From Dorea formicigenerans (lineage in GTDB: Bacteria > Bacillota > Clostridia > Lachnospirales > Lachnospiraceae): 64,000 nt of DNA. A program made the translations under genes and the position numbers. The notes below the pieces were generated by a model. The model saw nothing but the letters and a program-made list of their open reading frames with translations, searched no databases and was not told the DNA's origin. Shown piece by piece: positions 40,382 through 48,899 of this stretch (its first letter is position 1; each line of letters starts with the position of its first letter). The stretch lies in NCBI RefSeq assembly GCF_025150245.1, contig NZ_CP102279.1, forward strand, positions 1,609,423 through 1,673,422. The letters run 5' to 3'.

Positions 40382-40410
40382 AAAAAAAGAAAGCCCGGCG
40401 ATGAGCTTTC
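40382..40410 (-). terminator. Terminator of the etfBA cluster
   Basis: GAAAGC (40389-40394) pairs with GCTTTC (40405-40410), with more GC pairing possible in the loop. On the minus strand CTTTTTTTG follows. It lies about 70 bp after the etfA stop. Confidence 0.75.
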
Positions 40411-40477: not shown

Positions 40478-41461
40478 TTACAGTGTCAGGTAGTTCTCCA
40501 GAATTTCTTTTAAATCTGCCTGGATTCCGTAATCTGCAACTCCAAAAATCGCAGCATTTTCGTCTGTATTGACTGCAACATATAAATTTGTATCCTTGAT
40601 TCCTTCTGTATGCTGAATTGCTCCGGATACACCAAAGGAGATACAGATCTTCGGACGGATTGTAAGTCCTGTCTGTCCAATCTGGTGATTGAACGGAATC
40701 ATCTCTGAATCAACCATTGGTCTTGTTCCTCCGATTGCTCCTCCGACTTTCTCAGCAAATTTCTCGAGAAGTTCAAAGTTATCATCTTCCAGAACTCCAC
40801 GTCCTCCGACAACAACAACTTCTGCTCCGAGAATACTGTCTGTTGTATTTTCTGCCGGAAGTTCTTCCAGAATCTCAACTCCAGATTTTTCAATTTTGAT
40901 ATCATCAAAAAATGTTACATTTGCATTTCCGCTTTCTTTTGCCTCACAGGCTGCATAGACACCAGGTCTTACTGTCATCATCTGCGGATAAATACCTTCT
41001 TTTGTAAGAATTGTAACAAATACATTTTCTCCGTAGGACGGTTTGTTCTGTTTAATATAGAAAGAACCGTCTTCTCTCTGAGCAGCCAGAACCTCTGTAC
41101 AGTCCGCAGTCATACCACAACCAAGACGCATCGCTACTCTTGAGAAAATAGAACGTCCCTGTGGTGTTGCCGGAACAAGCACTGCGGATGGCTCGATTTT
41201 CTTTAACATTTCAGCAATTGCAGCACTGACTGCATCATCCTGAAGTGTGATATCATGATCTGCTTTTACTGCATAGATTTCATCTACACCAAGCTTATCT
41301 AATTCTTTTACAAGTTCTTCTGCATGGTCGGAAAGAACGATTGCCTGAACTTTTTCTTTTGTTGTCTCAGCCAGACCTTTTGCCGCTGAAACCAGTTCTG
41401 CAGCTACCGTCTCTAATTCACCATTATAACTTTCTGCATAAACACAAATTCCATTAGCCAT
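40478..41461 (-). CDS. etfA: Electron transfer flavoprotein, alpha subunit
   Basis: 327 residues from MANGICVYAESYNGELETVA; AAAGGAAAG lies upstream, and this start is 4 bp after the etfB stop. N-terminal ETF fold, VLVPATPQGRSIFSRVAMRL near 95, then the FAD-binding C-terminal part: VVVGGRGVLEDDNFELLEKF, GGTRPMVDSEMIPFNHQIGQ, and CISFGVSGAIQHTEGI near 278, which includes the family signature. With EtfB it accepts electrons from a flavin dehydrogenase, very likely the FAD oxidoreductase encoded upstream in the same operon. Confidence 0.95.
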   Translation of the reverse strand: MANGICVYAESYNGELETVAAELVSAAKGLAETTKEKVQAIVLSDHAEELVKELDKLGVDEIYAVKADHDITLQDDAVSAAIAEMLKKIEPSAVLVPATPQGRSIFSRVAMRLGCGMTADCTEVLAAQREDGSFYIKQNKPSYGENVFVTILTKEGIYPQMMTVRPGVYAACEAKESGNANVTFFDDIKIEKSGVEILEELPAENTTDSILGAEVVVVGGRGVLEDDNFELLEKFAEKVGGAIGGTRPMVDSEMIPFNHQIGQTGLTIRPKICISFGVSGAIQHTEGIKDTNLYVAVNTDENAAIFGVADYGIQADLKEILENYLTL

Positions 41462-41465
41462 AGGT

Positions 41466-42257
41466 CTACTTTCCTTTCTCCTCTTCAATCAGGTCATAAA
41501 GCTGTTTTGCAAGTTCTGCCGGTGTACCTGTAAGCATCTTAGCACTTCTCTTTGTCTCCGGCTGGAAGGAATCAACAGTAACTGTCGGTGATCCCTTGAT
41601 TCCAATTTCCTCTGCTGCAAATCCAAGTTCAGCATTTGTATAGGTAACAAGTGGTTTTGATTTTGCCGCACGTTTACTTCTAAGTGTTGCAAGTCTTGGC
41701 TCATTGCAACCAAAGTTTACAGATAATACTGCCGGTGTAGCGCAGGAAATCCTGAAACTTGTATCGTGCATTTTCTTTACAACTTCAACTTTTCCTGCCT
41801 GATCTTCCTTATATTTTACAGACTGGATTTCTACAACATGTGGAAGATTTAATTCTTCTGCAACCATTGCTGCCACCTGTCCGGTTGCCCCGTCTGCTGA
41901 CAGGGCACCTCCTAAGATCAGGTCAAATTCGCCATATAACTGAATTGCTTTTGCTAATACTTTTGCTGTTGCTACGGTATCTCCTCCTGCAACTGCTCTA
42001 TCTGTAATCAGGCAGCTTTCGTCACATCCGAGTGCCATCGCATCACGCAATGCTTTTTCTGCATCCGGTGGTCCCATCGTAAATACTACAACTTTTCCGT
42101 CTGTCTGCTCTTTTAACTGCATTGCTTCTTCAATGGCATTCAGATCTGCCGGATTAATCATTCCTTCAGAGCTTGCACGTACAAGTGCATGTGTTTCCGG
42201 GTCTACAGATACATCGTTAGATACCGGAACCTGCTTAATAAGAACTGCTATATTCAT
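41466..42257 (-). CDS. etfB: Electron transfer flavoprotein, beta subunit
   Basis: 263 residues. N-terminal MNIAVLIKQVPVSNDVSVDP, GMINPADLNAIEEAMQLKEQ near 31, FTMGPPDAEKALRDAMALG near 59, LGGALSADGATGQVAAMVAEE near 113 and the beta-subunit signature region CNEPRLATLRSKRAAKSKPL near 185. Binds AMP or, in bifurcating ETFs, a second FAD; which applies cannot be decided here. It is 61 bp downstream of the FAD oxidoreductase gene and 4 bp upstream of etfA. Confidence 0.95.
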   Translation of the reverse strand: MNIAVLIKQVPVSNDVSVDPETHALVRASSEGMINPADLNAIEEAMQLKEQTDGKVVVFTMGPPDAEKALRDAMALGCDESCLITDRAVAGGDTVATAKVLAKAIQLYGEFDLILGGALSADGATGQVAAMVAEELNLPHVVEIQSVKYKEDQAGKVEVVKKMHDTSFRISCATPAVLSVNFGCNEPRLATLRSKRAAKSKPLVTYTNAELGFAAEEIGIKGSPTVTVDSFQPETKRSAKMLTGTPAELAKQLYDLIEEEKGK

Positions 42258-42318
42258 AGTTTCCTCCTATTATTTTTACTTTCATCTGTTACTTTCAATG
42301 GTAACTTTCGTTTGCTTA

Positions 42319-43485
42319 TTAGTCTTCAAGAAGTCTCTCGAATGCCCAGTTCTCAAGAAGTGGTGTGCTCTCGTCACGCATGATTAGTTTTGCAAGATCA
42401 CGTGTTGCTGCCGGAACCTCGATGACTCCATTTCCACCAAATCCTGTTGAAAGCATGTATCCTTCTACTGGTGTCTTACCAAGTACCGGCCAGAAATCCT
42501 TTGGCTCTGCACGGTAGGATAACCAGGAAGATACAAGTCCGCTGTCTACGATTCCCGGAACCTTAGCATCCAACTGATCCAGAAGGAAGTCGATGAAGTA
42601 ATCGTCTGTTCCACCTGTTGCAGGTAATTTGTCTGGATCCCACTGTCCTGCATGCATCGGATTGTTCAGATCCATAGATAAGTGAGATTTGCAGATAAAA
42701 ATGTTGTCTCCTGCTCTCAGTGCATAGAACTCTGGGTATTTCAGTACTGGGAATGTGTAGTCTAATTTCTTTCCTGGAGGGCATAAGAAGAATGCTTCCG
42801 CTTTTGTATGCCAGATTGGTACGTTCAGTCCAACCATTTCTCCTGTAATTTTGCTCCATGGACCTGTACAGTCAACAACTACATCAAACTCATACTCTGC
42901 TCCATCGTCAGTTGTAAGACCTTTTACTTTGTTATCTACAATCTTAACATCTGTAACTTTCACGCCTGTCTTTACAGTTACGCCATTTTTCTGAGCTTTT
43001 TTCATATATGTATTGGAAATCATTGTTCCATCAAAATATCCGTCATCCTCTGTATATCCTGCTCCAAGAATATTTTCTGTAGAAATGTCTGGAAGGATTT
43101 CTTTGATACGGTCTTTATCTGTAATATACTCTCCTGTATATCCTGCTGCTTTTGCAAGAGCGATTCCTGTCTTAATAACCTTCTCTACTTCTTCATTTGT
43201 TGCTACTACAAGAGTTCCTGTCTTATCAAATCCTGCTGAACCTTTCTCTTCCTCTTCCATTTTCAGATAGGACTCGAAACCATAAAGTCTAACGTCCCAG
43301 TATCTGTTCTTGAGGGAATCATCAAAAAGACATACTGTTCCGGCTGATTTTGCTGTAGAAGCTCCACCGATTGTGTCCTTTTCAAATACTGTCACATCAG
43401 CTTCTCCTTCGTAGAGGCTTAAGTGATAAGCCAGTCCTGCTCCTGAGATTCCGCCACCGATAATACCAATTTTTTTCTTTGCCAT
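42319..43485 (-). CDS. FAD-dependent oxidoreductase of the DAO/sarcosine-dehydrogenase type
   Basis: 388 residues. Rossmann FAD site KIGIIGGGISGAGLAYHLSL at the N-terminus, FEKDTIGGASTAKSAGTVC near 35-55, a second dinucleotide strand VVVDCTGPWSKITGEMVGL near 205, and the C-terminal GYMLSTGFGGNGVIEVPAATRDLAKL near 345. This is the layout of glycine/sarcosine oxidases and D-amino-acid dehydrogenases. In an anaerobe next to etfBA, it is most likely a dehydrogenase passing electrons to ETF. The amine or amino-acid substrate is unknown. Between the M20 hydrolase (61 bp upstream) and etfB. Confidence 0.88.
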   Translation of the reverse strand: MAKKKIGIIGGGISGAGLAYHLSLYEGEADVTVFEKDTIGGASTAKSAGTVCLFDDSLKNRYWDVRLYGFESYLKMEEEEKGSAGFDKTGTLVVATNEEVEKVIKTGIALAKAAGYTGEYITDKDRIKEILPDISTENILGAGYTEDDGYFDGTMISNTYMKKAQKNGVTVKTGVKVTDVKIVDNKVKGLTTDDGAEYEFDVVVDCTGPWSKITGEMVGLNVPIWHTKAEAFFLCPPGKKLDYTFPVLKYPEFYALRAGDNIFICKSHLSMDLNNPMHAGQWDPDKLPATGGTDDYFIDFLLDQLDAKVPGIVDSGLVSSWLSYRAEPKDFWPVLGKTPVEGYMLSTGFGGNGVIEVPAATRDLAKLIMRDESTPLLENWAFERLLED

Positions 43486-43546
43486 AGTTTTTTACCTGCC
43501 TTTCTTTTTTTTAGGTTTCCTTAAAGTGCATCATGTCTTTCGACTT

Positions 43547-44782
43547 TTATTTTTCATCCAGTTTTAAAACTGTATTTAACAAAACATTGCAGCCATTCTC
43601 AATGTCTTCCGGCGCTGTGTATTCATATCTGGAATGACTGATTCCGTCTTTGCTAGGCACGAAAATCATTCCTGTCGGGAATACGCTTGTCATGATCAGG
43701 GAGTCATGAAATGCACCGCTTGGGATGACTGTATAATCAATTCCAAGCTCTTTTACCGCTTCCTCTATCGTTCCTCTTACTAATTCCGACATTGGTGCCG
43801 GATCATGATAAGATGTCGGAACAAATGTAGACGTAACTCCATATTTTTTGCAGATGTCCTCAAGAAGCTGTCTGAGATGATTTTCGATCAGTTTCATAAC
43901 TTCTGCGCTCTGGTCACGAATCTCCAGGCTGAAAGTGCAAGTTCCTGGAATTACATTAACGGAATGTGGTGTAACTTTAATGGTTCCGACTGTTGCAACA
44001 GTAAATTCATTTCCATACTCTTTTACAATTTCCGGAACCTTGTTGATGAATCCAGCCGCAGCAACGAGTGCATCTTTTCTGTCAGCCATCGCAGTACTTC
44101 CTGCATGATTTGCCTCGCCTGCTACAGTCACATCATATCGGTTCACACCTGCAATCGATGATACAACGCCGACCGGTGTATGTGCTTTATAAAGTCTGGA
44201 TCCCTGTTCTACATGAAGTTCGATAAAACTGTGTACCGTCTTTGGATCTCTTTTGGCTTTCATCACATTTGCACTTGTGATTCCATATGATTTCATCACT
44301 TCGCCTCGTGGCTCACCGTAAATATCCAGCTCATCATCACTGACATCAGGGTCCTGTCCACAAAGTGAACTGCTTCCCAGAAGTCCTTTTCCAAAACGGA
44401 ATCCTTCTTCATCGGTAAACACAATCACCTCGATCGGGTGTTTCGGAACTTTTCCATGTTCCTTTAACACTTCACATACTTCCAATCCTCCAACGCAGCC
44501 AGTCACTCCATCGTATCGGCCTCCGTCCGGAACCGTGTCAAGATGGGAACCCATCATGATTGCCGGAAGATCATTATCCTGCCCATCCATATGAGCAATC
44601 AGGTTACCAGCTTCGTCCACATGGCATGTCATGCCAAGGCGCTTTGCCCAAGATGCAAAAAGTTCTCTTCCTTTTACATCTTCTTCGGAGAATGCCATTC
44701 TCGTGTACGTTCCATCTTCTTTTTTACCACACTGATAAATGTCTTCTAATCTGGAAACCACACGATTTATATTTGCTTTCAT
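43547..44782 (-). CDS. M20-family Zn-dependent amidohydrolase (N-carbamoyl-amino-acid hydrolase/allantoate amidohydrolase type)
   Basis: 411 residues from MKANINRVVSRLEDIYQC; AGGGAGGAGG lies upstream of this ATG. Metal and fold motifs: MMGSHLDTVPDGGRYDGVTG near 78, VFTDEEGFRFGKGLLGSS near 120, SFIELHVEQGSRLY near 180, AGEANHAGSTAMADRKDALV near 210, IPSGAFHDSLIMTSVFPTGM near 350 and FVPSKDGISHSRYEYTAPED. This is the HyuC/AllC subfamily, which removes a carbamoyl (ureido) group from N-carbamoyl amino acids or allantoate. First structural gene after pucR, 61 bp before the FAD enzyme. The exact substrate is open. Confidence 0.9.
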   Translation of the reverse strand: MKANINRVVSRLEDIYQCGKKEDGTYTRMAFSEEDVKGRELFASWAKRLGMTCHVDEAGNLIAHMDGQDNDLPAIMMGSHLDTVPDGGRYDGVTGCVGGLEVCEVLKEHGKVPKHPIEVIVFTDEEGFRFGKGLLGSSSLCGQDPDVSDDELDIYGEPRGEVMKSYGITSANVMKAKRDPKTVHSFIELHVEQGSRLYKAHTPVGVVSSIAGVNRYDVTVAGEANHAGSTAMADRKDALVAAAGFINKVPEIVKEYGNEFTVATVGTIKVTPHSVNVIPGTCTFSLEIRDQSAEVMKLIENHLRQLLEDICKKYGVTSTFVPTSYHDPAPMSELVRGTIEEAVKELGIDYTVIPSGAFHDSLIMTSVFPTGMIFVPSKDGISHSRYEYTAPEDIENGCNVLLNTVLKLDEK

Positions 44783-44870
44783 CCGAATTCCTCCTCCCTT
44801 GTGAATCTTTGTTTTTCTATGTCTCATATTATAGATATTTTTTTAACAATACGCATCTGCATAATTGGAC

Positions 44871-44914
44871 AAAAAAATAACAGAGATTTATCAACAACTG
44901 ATAAATCTCTGTTA
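44871..44914 (-). terminator. Terminator of pucR
   Basis: Perfect 15-bp stem (44879-44893 with 44899-44913), loop ACAAC. The minus strand continues ATTTTTTTGTCC. It separates pucR from the M20 hydrolase gene, which has a TATAAT box nearby of its own. Confidence 0.9.
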
Positions 44915-44930
44915 CTTTCTCAAAAAACTG

Positions 44931-46613
44931 CTATTTTTTTAAATTTTCCATCATTTTACATACAACTAAGCCAATTCGGACAGATAGTACTTCATTAGGG
45001 TTATCAAAATCTATGCCTGTGATCTGCGAAATCCGCTCAATACGATAGGCCGCCGTCTTATAATGTATATACAAGTCCTGAGCTGTCTTTGTCAGATTCT
45101 GGTTGTGTTCCAGATAAGTCTTAAGTGTCAGGATCAGATCCTGACGCTGCTGTTTTTTGTAATGATATAATTTTTGAAGAGATTCTGGTACATATTCCAT
45201 CATTTCTTTCTCATCACTGAGCTGACAAAGCAGTTTGAAAATTCCCATGTCGGAGAAAATCATAATTTTGGACTGACTGTCTTCATTTTCATCTCCAAGA
45301 ATATCAATAAACATCAGTGAATCAGTTGCCTCTTTAAAACTGCTCGGAATATGTTCAATCCCCTCTATCATTCGTCCGACTCCGGCACAGACTTTCAAAT
45401 CTTTTTTCGTACTTGCCACACGCTTCTGGATTTTCATGACTATTTCTTTCAATTCATGACGATATTCTTCCTGTTTTCTCGCCGGATCTACTTCCTGGAT
45501 CACAATGACTCTGTCCATATCATTCTGAATCTTCACATTCGGAAATTCAATAGCGATCGCATTGTTCAATATATTCGTGTATTTCACCGTGTCATTCAGA
45601 TCGACCTGATTTGAGCTATATCCGAGATTGAACGCAATAATACGGTAGGACGCATCCATAGAAATTCCAAGCAGGGAACTGTCCCTTCGAAGTTCCTGAA
45701 TTGAGTGAACCTTTCCATTCAAAATATTGTTCATAATATCACTCTGGAACTTTTTCTCAAGATCTGCCAGTGAACTTTGACGGAACAATTCCTGCTTCAA
45801 CGCTGTTACTGCATTCTCAACTGCAATAAAATCCATACCGTTGACCGGATGTTCTGTTTCAGTAACAACCAGATACATTCTCGCATTATACATAACATTC
45901 AATCGCACAAGATACTGCCCAATCTTTTCTTCCGGTTTTTCCTCCAATGTAATTTCCTGTCTCCGGTATTTATAATTTGAATAGAAGTCTAAAGAATATT
46001 CTTTTGCGTCCGGCTGAATTTCAAATTCACGGATTCTCGTATCTGTTGTCGCCTGGCATTCCAGATTCTGATCAAACAATGCCACCGGGTTTCCAATCAG
46101 TTTTGACAAAATGTCTACAATACGCTGCACTCCATTTTCCATGGAATGAAAGGAAAGTGACAGTGCCGTGAAATTATCATGAGTTGTCTTAAAATACTTA
46201 AGTCTGATAACTTCCTCACTGAAAATATGCTCCATGATCGTATTAAGAATTTCTCGAAATGGCATTTCAAACGGAATCTCAATGACAGGAATTTCTGTCT
46301 TTTGAGCATACTCCTGTATGACCGCCATCTTTTCCTCCAGGAAGTCTACGGTTCTTCCTTGCTTAATCACAAGTGCACTTACTTTTTTCTTTGCAAGCTC
46401 CGCGATATAACTGCGGAACTCTTCCGGGGAACAATTCTGAAATGCATTCAATCCTGTCAGAAGGACCTCTCCACCACTGATAAAACGAACAATATCTGGA
46501 GATTCAATAATCGTAACACCACGGATTTCCTGGCCAATACCACCTTTGCCCCAGAGCAGATTCGCTTTCTGAAATAATTTCATATCAAGCATATCCTGTA
46601 CTGTAAATCCCAT
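44931..46613 (-). CDS. PucR-family transcriptional regulator
   Basis: 560 residues. N-terminal PucR domain (GFTVQDMLDMKLFQKANLLW, GVTIIESPDIVRFISGGEVL, IPVIEIPFEMPFREILNTIM) up to about 130, a central GAF/GGDEF-like region, and the C-terminal helix-turn-helix: LKTYLEHNQNLTKTAQDLYI then HYKTAAYRIERISQITGIDF. PucR in Bacillus controls purine catabolism; relatives control amino-acid and hydantoin use. It lies 148 bp upstream of the amidohydrolase-FAD-etfBA genes on the same strand and is their likely activator. Its own terminator makes it a separate transcript. Confidence 0.92.
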   Translation of the reverse strand: MGFTVQDMLDMKLFQKANLLWGKGGIGQEIRGVTIIESPDIVRFISGGEVLLTGLNAFQNCSPEEFRSYIAELAKKKVSALVIKQGRTVDFLEEKMAVIQEYAQKTEIPVIEIPFEMPFREILNTIMEHIFSEEVIRLKYFKTTHDNFTALSLSFHSMENGVQRIVDILSKLIGNPVALFDQNLECQATTDTRIREFEIQPDAKEYSLDFYSNYKYRRQEITLEEKPEEKIGQYLVRLNVMYNARMYLVVTETEHPVNGMDFIAVENAVTALKQELFRQSSLADLEKKFQSDIMNNILNGKVHSIQELRRDSSLLGISMDASYRIIAFNLGYSSNQVDLNDTVKYTNILNNAIAIEFPNVKIQNDMDRVIVIQEVDPARKQEEYRHELKEIVMKIQKRVASTKKDLKVCAGVGRMIEGIEHIPSSFKEATDSLMFIDILGDENEDSQSKIMIFSDMGIFKLLCQLSDEKEMMEYVPESLQKLYHYKKQQRQDLILTLKTYLEHNQNLTKTAQDLYIHYKTAAYRIERISQITGIDFDNPNEVLSVRIGLVVCKMMENLKK

Positions 46614-46899: not shown

Positions 46900-48171
46900 T
46901 TATTTTATTAATTTTTTTCCAATATCAAAACAATCAAAGGTTGCGAAATAATCTGCTGGTGTTTCAGCTCTTCGGATAAGCTGTGTGCTTCCATCTTCTT
47001 TTAAGAGCACCTCTGCGGATTTTAATTTTCCATTATAATTGTATCCCATAGAAAATCCATGTGCCCCTGTATCATGAATCATAAGAACATCTCCCATATC
47101 AATCTTCGGAAGCATACGGTCAATTGCAAATTTGTCATTATTCTCACAAAGGGAACCTGTTACATCATATTTGTGATCACACGGCACATCTTCTTTTCCC
47201 ATGACTGTAATATGGTGATATGCACCATACATAGCCGGACGCATCAAATTTACTGCGCATGCATCTACCCCAATATATTCCTTATGGGTGTGTTTCTCAT
47301 GAATTGCTTTTGTTACAAGGCAGCCATAAGGTCCCAACATAAATCTTCCAAGTTCTGTATAAAGAGCTACATCTCCCATGCCTGCAGGCACAAGAACCTC
47401 ATTATAAACTTCCCGCACACCGTCTCCAATCGCACGGATATCATTTGGCTCCTGATCTGGTGTATACGGAATTCCGATACCGCCTGACAAATTAATAAAT
47501 TTGATATGAATGCCTACCTCTTTCTGAAGCTTTACAGCCACTTCAAATAATACTTTTGCAAGCATCGGATAATATTCATTTGTTACAGTATTACTTGCAA
47601 GGAAGGCATGAATTCCAAATTCCTTCGCACCTTTGCTTTTTAAAATCTTAAATGCTTCAAAAAGCTGCTCCGTTGTCATACCAAACTTGGCATCTCCCGG
47701 GTTATCCATAATATCATTACTAATCTTAAACAGTCCGCCCGGATTATACCGGCAACTGATCGTTTCTGGAATCTCACCAATTGTCTCTTCAAGGAAATCA
47801 ATATGCGTAATATCATCCAGATTAATAATTGCTCCTAACTTGTGTGCAAGTTCATATTCTTCTCTCGGTGTGTCATTGGAAGAAAACATAATGTCCTCTC
47901 CCTTTACTCCCATTGCATCTGAAAGGAGAAGTTCTGTATAAGAAGAACAGTCACATCCGCATCCATACTCTCTCAAAATATCAATCAGAAACGGATTCGG
48001 CGTTGCTTTAACTGCAAAATACTCTTTATACCCCGGATTCCATGCAAATGCTTCTTTTAGTGCCTGCATATTCTTGCGAATTCCCTTCTCATCATAAAGA
48101 TGAAATGGAGTTGGATATTTTTTAATAATTTCATCCAGTTGTTCTTTTGTTACAAATGGTTTTTTCTTCAT
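46900..48171 (-). CDS. lysA: Diaminopimelate decarboxylase
   Basis: 423 residues, PLP fold III. The PLP-lysine is in KEYFAVKATPNPFL near residue 54. Glycine-rich and phosphate-binding segments are FINLSGGIGIPYTPDQEPND near 226 and ALYTELGRFMLGPYG near 275. The substrate/PLP residue motif GSLCENNDKFAIDR near 345 replaces the usual xxGPxCESxD. Makes L-lysine from meso-diaminopimelate. It overlaps the regulator gene upstream by 4 bp (ATGA), so they are translated together. Length and motifs are near the LysA norm; a related decarboxylase of another carboxylated amino acid is less likely. Confidence 0.88.
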   Translation of the reverse strand: MKKKPFVTKEQLDEIIKKYPTPFHLYDEKGIRKNMQALKEAFAWNPGYKEYFAVKATPNPFLIDILREYGCGCDCSSYTELLLSDAMGVKGEDIMFSSNDTPREEYELAHKLGAIINLDDITHIDFLEETIGEIPETISCRYNPGGLFKISNDIMDNPGDAKFGMTTEQLFEAFKILKSKGAKEFGIHAFLASNTVTNEYYPMLAKVLFEVAVKLQKEVGIHIKFINLSGGIGIPYTPDQEPNDIRAIGDGVREVYNEVLVPAGMGDVALYTELGRFMLGPYGCLVTKAIHEKHTHKEYIGVDACAVNLMRPAMYGAYHHITVMGKEDVPCDHKYDVTGSLCENNDKFAIDRMLPKIDMGDVLMIHDTGAHGFSMGYNYNGKLKSAEVLLKEDGSTQLIRRAETPADYFATFDCFDIGKKLIK

Positions 48172-48899
48172 TGCATGTTCTCCTCTCGTATTGCCAGAAG
48201 TTTTATTTCATTACTAAGAGCACTTTTATATAACTCTACAAAATTTTTCTGTCCGGAATAAAGGCATGTATTAATACTTCCTTCTCCATACTCTCCGGTC
48301 AGCACATATCTGGAATCTGTAATCACACCAATCTGCATTCCACGATTGTTTCCCATATAGACTCTGGCATTTCTAAAATTCACAGGTTGATCTGTCACAA
48401 TTACGACTTTCTTTTTAGCCCGGATCAGACTTTCCAGCTCATCCACGAACAATAACAGGTAATTTCTTGTACAGGAAATGTATACTCTCTCTTCGGCTTT
48501 TGCCAGAAGATTACGAATCTTATCCAAAATATTAGAAGAACCTTCTATTGTAATGTACCCTTCTACATGATCTTTTTCAGATGGCATATGCTTCTTTAGC
48601 CATCTTTGGGACTCTTCCAGCCTCCGGATTCTATTCCGGCAAAATTCGTCCAATGGCACAGATACATATTTTTTTGTTGTTCCTTCTTCCACCAGATAAG
48701 CCGCACCTTTTTCAGTCATACTTGCAAGCGAATTATACGCATTGGATCTAGATATTCCAAGCTGCTTTGCGACTTCATAGCCTGTCGTCTTTCCTTCACT
48801 GATCAGGCAGCCGTAAATTCCTGCTTCCTGCCTTGTAAGCCCAAATTCCATCAGGCGTTCGATATATGATTTATCTTCCATTTTTTCACCTGTTCTCAT
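48168..48899 (-). CDS. TrmB-family transcriptional regulator
   Basis: 243 residues. N-terminal winged helix: LMEFGLTRQEAGIYGCLISE, GKTTGYEVAKQLGISRSNAY, NSLASMTEKGAAYLVE. The C-terminal half (GYITIEGSSNILDKIRNLLA, RVYISCTRNYLLLFVDELES) is the phospholipase-D-like sensor half of TrmB proteins. It starts at an ATG with AAAGGA upstream; an ATG six codons in also has an AGGTGA. It overlaps lysA by 4 bp. A 10-bp inverted repeat flanks its own -35 box, so autoregulation is plausible. Confidence 0.85.
   Translation of the reverse strand: MRTGEKMEDKSYIERLMEFGLTRQEAGIYGCLISEGKTTGYEVAKQLGISRSNAYNSLASMTEKGAAYLVEEGTTKKYVSVPLDEFCRNRIRRLEESQRWLKKHMPSEKDHVEGYITIEGSSNILDKIRNLLAKAEERVYISCTRNYLLLFVDELESLIRAKKKVVIVTDQPVNFRNARVYMGNNRGMQIGVITDSRYVLTGEYGEGSINTCLYSGQKNFVELYKSALSNEIKLLAIREENMQ

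Follow-up and report, generated by a model that had tools for sequence, protein, structure and literature searches.

A pucR-M20-DAO-etfB-etfA unit of Dorea formicigenerans assigned to allantoin catabolism, with a possible reductive step to glycine

The chromosome of Dorea formicigenerans contains, within a 64,000-nucleotide stretch of contig NZ_CP102279.1 (hereafter the window), five open reading frames at positions 40478–46613, all on the minus strand, whose products match the Pfam families PucR and HTH_30, Peptidase_M20, DAO, ETF (beta subunit), and ETF with ETF_alpha, each well over its cut-off. An earlier note, made from the letters alone, had read them as a pucR-M20-DAO-etfB-etfA cluster, and frames, strand and families all agree with that reading. 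The locus raises the question of which compound such a unit handles and in which direction electrons pass between the flavoenzyme and its electron-transfer flavoprotein (ETF). Allantoin is a product of purine breakdown, and we propose, with a probability of roughly 0.45, that the unit forms a side branch of the anaerobic breakdown of allantoin in which a ureidoglycolate amidohydrolase (UAH)-type M20 enzyme, here called M20-1, is followed by reduction to glycine by the DAO-family enzyme and ETF.

Conservation of the unit and its allantoin-pathway neighbours

Conservation was assessed in 36 independent loci from one genome scan. The gene order, which the note had suggested following in relatives, is complete for all five genes in 30 loci across genera, while M20 and DAO occur together in 33 and DAO and etfB in all 36. 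Median identity to the window proteins is 89% for DAO, the most conserved gene of the unit, 78% for EtfB, 76% for both M20 and EtfA, and 54% for PucR. The distribution is patchy, with DAO present in 7 of 299 genomes of the family Lachnospiraceae; six of these are well assembled, and the seventh (G136) is a highly fragmented assembly.

Genes of the allantoin pathway adjoin the unit in 23 of the 36 loci, or in 24 when a locus with a weak AllE match is counted (L042, read by direct translation, as long overlapping reading frames mask the region). These neighbours vary among relatives and comprise allantoinase, an NCS1 permease, AllE, a second M20 enzyme (M20-2), AllFG, AllH and carbamate kinase. 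The linkage recurs outside Lachnospiraceae, in C. cadaveris, Synergistaceae, other Clostridia and the family designated f39, where complete clusters are found; two f39 loci (L064 and L065) show the order M20-DAO-etfBA-AllE-DctA/GltP-type carrier-AllC-AllB-AllB-NCS1.

The window genome itself carries a separate allantoin-to-oxamate locus (C1, about 2.215–2.232 Mb) encoding allantoin uptake, allantoinase, AllC, AllE, AllD, a fused AllFG, AllH and carbamate kinase, with scores above the curated cut-offs for AllD (537.6 against 496.2 bits), AllE (333 against 200), FdrA/AllF (718 against 433) and AllG (316 against 27). A carrier of the LctP/glycolate-permease type lies within this operon (L049, 10910–12520) and may export oxamate, a lactate-like molecule. 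Among the 299 family genomes, AllD occurs in 12 and AllFG in 17, and each overlaps with DAO in six (Fisher p = 7e-9 and 9e-8, respectively, values that overstate independence because the genomes are kin); the six well-assembled DAO genomes all contain both AllD and AllFG. Gene neighbourhood and co-occurrence thus firmly support the assignment of the unit to the allantoin pathway, which we regard as very probable. Ureides, one of the substrate options offered by the note, are borne out by the neighbours, the second locus and the co-occurrence, as is its expectation that part of the route lies elsewhere in the genome. Its remark that no hydantoinase or transporter is adjacent holds for the window locus and fails in relatives, where both adjoin the unit; both are also encoded elsewhere in the window genome.

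Outside Lachnospiraceae, the lineages that bear the unit lack AllD and AllFG (one genome, G695, has distant AllD relatives only), and the unit is therefore the sole exit for ureidoglycolate seen there. Replacement of AllD by DAO was rejected for Lachnospiraceae, since none of the six well-assembled DAO genomes there lacks AllD, and is still conceivable in the other lineages.

The amidohydrolase and its probable substrate

Within the family sample, M20-1 occurs in all seven DAO genomes and is absent from the six genomes that have AllD and lack DAO, which hold only other M20 types at 33–38% identity. This tracking of DAO by M20-1, together with the other M20s kept in the AllD genomes, suggests that M20-2 probably performs the AllC step and that M20-1 does something else. 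In the fragmented G136 assembly, an M20-1 orthologue (51% identity, L069) lies in another cluster with an ABC transporter, dehydrogenases and an amidohydrolase, on a contig without DAO.

Alignment revealed that M20-1 keeps the di-metal ligand motifs of M20 carbamoylases (GSHLDT, YDG, DEEG, ELHVEQG and GISH). Every DAO-adjacent M20 read has an aromatic residue in the motif SGA[FY]HDSL, Phe in the window protein and Tyr in f39, whose enzyme in the place of M20-1 is non-orthologous yet shares the motif. The Arabidopsis UAH (PDB 4pxb) likewise has an aromatic residue there (SRAYHDSL), which we take to be its Tyr423. The AllC of the pathway invariably reads SGAGHD here, and the position is Gly in E. 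coli AllC, in all M20-2 proteins and in the M20s of the AllD genomes without DAO, save for Val in one, and across M20s that are not beside DAO it is Gly, Ala or Val. M20-1 therefore does not have the small residue with which AllC makes room for a second ureido group. The pocket of UAH is smaller than that of allantoate amidohydrolase, and the aromatic residue accordingly points to ureidoglycolate, or ureidoglycine, as the substrate of M20-1. Cleavage of either compound would give iminoacetate or glyoxylate together with ammonia. We consider a UAH-like role for M20-1 likely.

It is improbable that M20-1 is instead a second allantoate amidohydrolase, which would make the unit a redundant copy accompanied by an unrelated flavoenzyme. 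NCBIfam does label both M20s as allantoate amidohydrolase; however, M20-1 and M20-2 form separate clades, the pocket residue differs consistently between M20-1 and AllC, and the clusters of C. cadaveris and f39 hold both enzymes side by side.

The flavoenzyme, its ETF and the direction of electron flow

The DAO enzyme has an N-terminal GxGxxG FAD motif in the form GGGISG, and its nearest matches, by sequence as well as by fold, are proline dehydrogenase and the sarcosine and glycine oxidases. Its top 50 fold matches are all amine or amino-acid enzymes (Foldseek TM 0.63–0.72, with the substrate domain poorly modelled), and it scores 93 bits against a cut-off of 250.8 for the NCBIfam equivalog of glycine oxidase ThiO. 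Of two structure models, the second was slightly better and the substrate domain was poor in both, so no residue-level statement on the active site is based on them. The note's proposal of a carbamoyl-cleaving M20 followed by an amine-type, ETF-linked flavoenzyme is supported.

EtfB is present in a single copy in the window genome, and no acyl-CoA dehydrogenase was found there, other possible ETF partners not having been searched individually. As the sole EtfB in a genome without a detected acyl-CoA dehydrogenase, the ETF probably serves DAO, exchanging electrons with NAD(H) or ferredoxin. Its sequence is closest to those of bifurcating, NADH-linked ETFs. Bifurcating EtfB proteins carry a DGDTAQVGP motif and the NADH residues R87/F89/G91 (PMC9232219), with Gly123 as a marker for the isoalloxazine of beta-FAD (PMC12630350), and a positive residue at EtfA position 205, Arg or Lys being accepted, contacts its N5 (PMC12630350, PMC9232219). 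The window EtfB keeps Gly123, Asp122, Thr125, Gln127, Val128, Arg87, G91 and the SPT motif, and Lys stands in place of LctC Arg205 in the window EtfA and in all but one of the 14 EtfA rows (13 of them), the exception being the unrelated type of an Anaerolineae locus (L046). Linkage of this ETF to NADH is plausible.

A glycine-forming direction would connect with the energy metabolism of these genomes. Glycine/sarcosine/betaine reductase of the GRDB family is encoded in 15 of 17 DAO genomes against none of 14 controls, a comparison that is supportive only. The window genome (G000) has a complete glycine reductase operon together with betaine and sarcosine reductase genes (L090 and L091), in which the reductase frames end at TGA where selenocysteine is expected. 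From formation energies, the E0' of glyoxylate plus NH4+/glycine is about −0.10 V, so that reduction of iminoacetate by NADH yields about −42 kJ/mol, or −7 to −23 kJ/mol with bifurcation, and amine oxidation with NAD+ would be uphill. A reductive role fits better with a single EtfB, no detected acyl-CoA dehydrogenase and an ETF of the NADH-linked, bifurcating type, and the idea that an amine is oxidised with electrons passing to ETF becomes doubtful and is probably to be reversed. That DAO and ETF form glycine by reduction is an interpretation to which we give slightly less than even odds.

In the proposed scheme, M20-1 would cleave ureidoglycolate to 2-hydroxyglycine, NH3 and CO2, a step we grade as likely, and hydroxyglycine would equilibrate with iminoacetate as well as with glyoxylate plus NH3. 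DAO would then reduce iminoacetate to glycine with electrons that EtfAB takes from NADH, perhaps bifurcating some of them to ferredoxin, and glycine could enter glycine reductase, giving acetyl phosphate and ATP, or biosynthesis. The branch would be switched on by PucR. In Lachnospiraceae it could balance the NADH formed by AllD of the oxamate branch, ureidoglycolate being both oxidised and reduced, whereas in lineages without AllD it would stand alone. More tentatively, DAO may run in reverse as an imine reductase that receives NADH-derived electrons from ETF, perhaps with bifurcation, and makes glycine from hydroxyglycine or iminoacetate; this would link the breakdown of purines in gut anaerobes to energy conservation by glycine reductase.

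Several observations weigh against this proposal. We know of no DAO-family enzyme that acts physiologically as an imine reductase, and a distant Anaerolineae homologue (53% identity) lies beside FixABCX and a carbamoyltransferase, which suggests oxidation there. The UAH signature of M20-1 consists of one residue and HDSL. Two DAO genomes (G441 and G520) lack GRDB, and the comparison in which they figure is confined to 14 control genomes. The beta-FAD motif of the window EtfB reads DGATGQVAA, with Asp124 replaced by Ala and Pro130 often Ala across members, and Phe89 is Val in the window and Val or Leu in many members; these changes make electron bifurcation by EtfAB uncertain. Finally, the promoter of the M20-DAO-etfBA genes was not found at the main allantoin locus as read, which leaves co-regulation without support. 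At the Anaerolineae locus (L046), which has no M20, the DAO homologue is accompanied by FixABCX, carbamate kinase and an ornithine-carbamoyltransferase-like enzyme; this locus perhaps represents a phosphorolytic, respiratory form of the branch.

An oxidative branch is the obvious counterpart: DAO would oxidise ureidoglycine or ureidoglycolate to oxalurate, which M20-1 would convert to oxamate, or hydroxyglycine to oxamate, with electrons passing through ETF to NAD+ or ferredoxin. DAO-family members usually oxidise, ureidoglycine is an alpha-amino acid, the Anaerolineae neighbourhood agrees, and DAO could stand in for AllD in lineages without AllD and AllFG. In Lachnospiraceae, however, such a branch would be redundant with the AllD and AllFG of all six well-assembled DAO genomes; it would also forfeit the ATP of carbamoyl phosphate and employ an ETF that AllD, which oxidises with NAD, does not need, and the UAH-like aromatic pocket fits ureidoglycolate. 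We therefore consider oxidation rather unlikely. Reduction of glyoxylate to glycolate, with the same place in the pathway and no glycine made, has a suitable potential as well, and the LctP/glycolate-permease-type carrier of the main allantoin locus could be read in its favour, but the folds and sequences nearest to DAO act on amines and are not hydroxyacid dehydrogenases, and we give this option little credence. Least probable is the route favoured in the earlier note, in which N-carbamoylsarcosine or another carbamoyl amino acid, such as one derived from a hydantoin, is hydrolysed and the amine oxidised through ETF. A general resemblance to M20 carbamoylases and to sarcosine and glycine oxidases speaks for it. 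Allantoin and ureidoglycolate are indicated instead by the genes adjoining the unit in relatives, by the second locus and by the co-occurrence; moreover, the N-carbamoylsarcosine amidohydrolase known so far belongs to a different superfamily, being a cysteine hydrolase, and sarcosine has another visible fate in a genome with sarcosine and betaine reductase genes.

Transcription, known systems and significance

The intrinsic terminator said to close the unit after etfA is present, and a second one lies between pucR and M20, where most relatives likewise have a hairpin with a T-run (Table 1). A strong terminator at this point, followed by a conserved promoter, suggests that pucR and M20-DAO-etfBA are probably two separate transcripts, the latter likely activated by PucR, as predicted from the promoter pattern downstream of pucR in 29 of 32 pucR loci. 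No second site scoring >9 was found in the window or in the other sequences scanned (L049, L050, L052 and L090–L092), and a promoter common to the unit and the main allantoin locus was rejected, no such site being found at the latter as read. The M20 family assignment stands, whereas a start at 44827, from which the frame is readable, gives way to ATG 44782 as the most likely start because of the ribosome site GGAGGAGG upstream and the length of relatives, mostly 410–415 residues. EtfA probably starts at ATG 41461, its frame being readable from TTG 41488. Next to the unit (46900–48899) lie a TrmB-type regulator and a LysA-like decarboxylase whose score falls short of the LysA cut-off, both as common chromosomal context only.

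Table 1 Features of the unit in window coordinates.
Feature	Position	Strand	Remarks
pucR, PucR-family regulator	44931..46613	-	Pfam PucR 100.9 bits, HTH_30 69.9 bits; in the full unit of 30 loci
Promoter of M20-DAO-etfBA, conserved	44828..44862	-	-10 TATAAT; ATG-N5/6-TGTTA block 10 nt upstream
Intrinsic terminator between pucR and M20	about 44871..44917	-	15-20 bp hairpin and U-run; strong
M20-1 amidohydrolase, UAH-like	43547..44782	-	NF006771 458 bits; SGAFHDSL motif as in plant UAH; travels with DAO
Amine-type FAD enzyme of the DAO family; proposed glycine-forming imine reductase	42319..43485	-	Pfam DAO 179.9 bits
etfB	41466..42257	-	Nearest to bifurcating EtfB proteins, CarD among them; Gly123, Arg87, SPT kept
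etfA	40478..41461	-	Pfam ETF and ETF_alpha
Intrinsic terminator after etfA	40382..40410	-	8-bp stem and T-run

The second locus of the window genome contains the whole oxamate branch of the E. coli allantoin pathway (AllBCE, AllD, AllFGH and AllK), whereas the E. coli cluster lacks an M20-DAO-ETF branch and has AllA/Gcl, leading to glycerate, as its second branch (PMC12535856). M20-1 resembles plant UAH (PDB 4pxb/4pxe) in family and aromatic-HDSL motif, but plants release glyoxylate, whereas M20-1 has Phe (Tyr in f39) and is coupled to a flavoenzyme and ETF. CarCDE, LctBCD and Bcd-EtfAB share the EtfAB lineage and a dedicated oxidoreductase partner in one operon; here, however, the partner belongs to the DAO family rather than to the acyl-CoA dehydrogenases or FAD-linked lactate dehydrogenases, and the beta-FAD motif is altered. 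Sarcosine and dimethylglycine dehydrogenases and glycine oxidase share the DAO-family fold and, in the mitochondrial enzymes, the coupling to ETF, but DAO lacks a folate domain, is about 20% identical to them and would run in the opposite direction. The ureidoglycine carbamoyltransferase cluster of Rubrobacter resembles L046 in that ureides are broken down with the help of carbamoyl transfer and a carbamate kinase, and differs in that no M20-DAO-ETF unit is described in the parts of the account consulted (PMC4016543). No published description of the M20-DAO-ETF unit or of its glycine-forming step was found in the literature covered, which mostly excludes subscription journals, nor anything relevant on fermentation of allantoin with oxamate in Clostridium, on a connection between allantoin and glycine reductase, or on Tyr423.

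These results assign a likely pathway to a widespread, unnamed gene unit of gut bacteria and offer a possible reason why an anaerobe without a detected acyl-CoA dehydrogenase retains an ETF. If the reductive direction is correct, DAO would be a new partner family for ETF-based electron transfer, and the unit would give gut bacteria a new way to exploit allantoin as a source of carbon, nitrogen and energy, with a bearing on host and dietary purine turnover.

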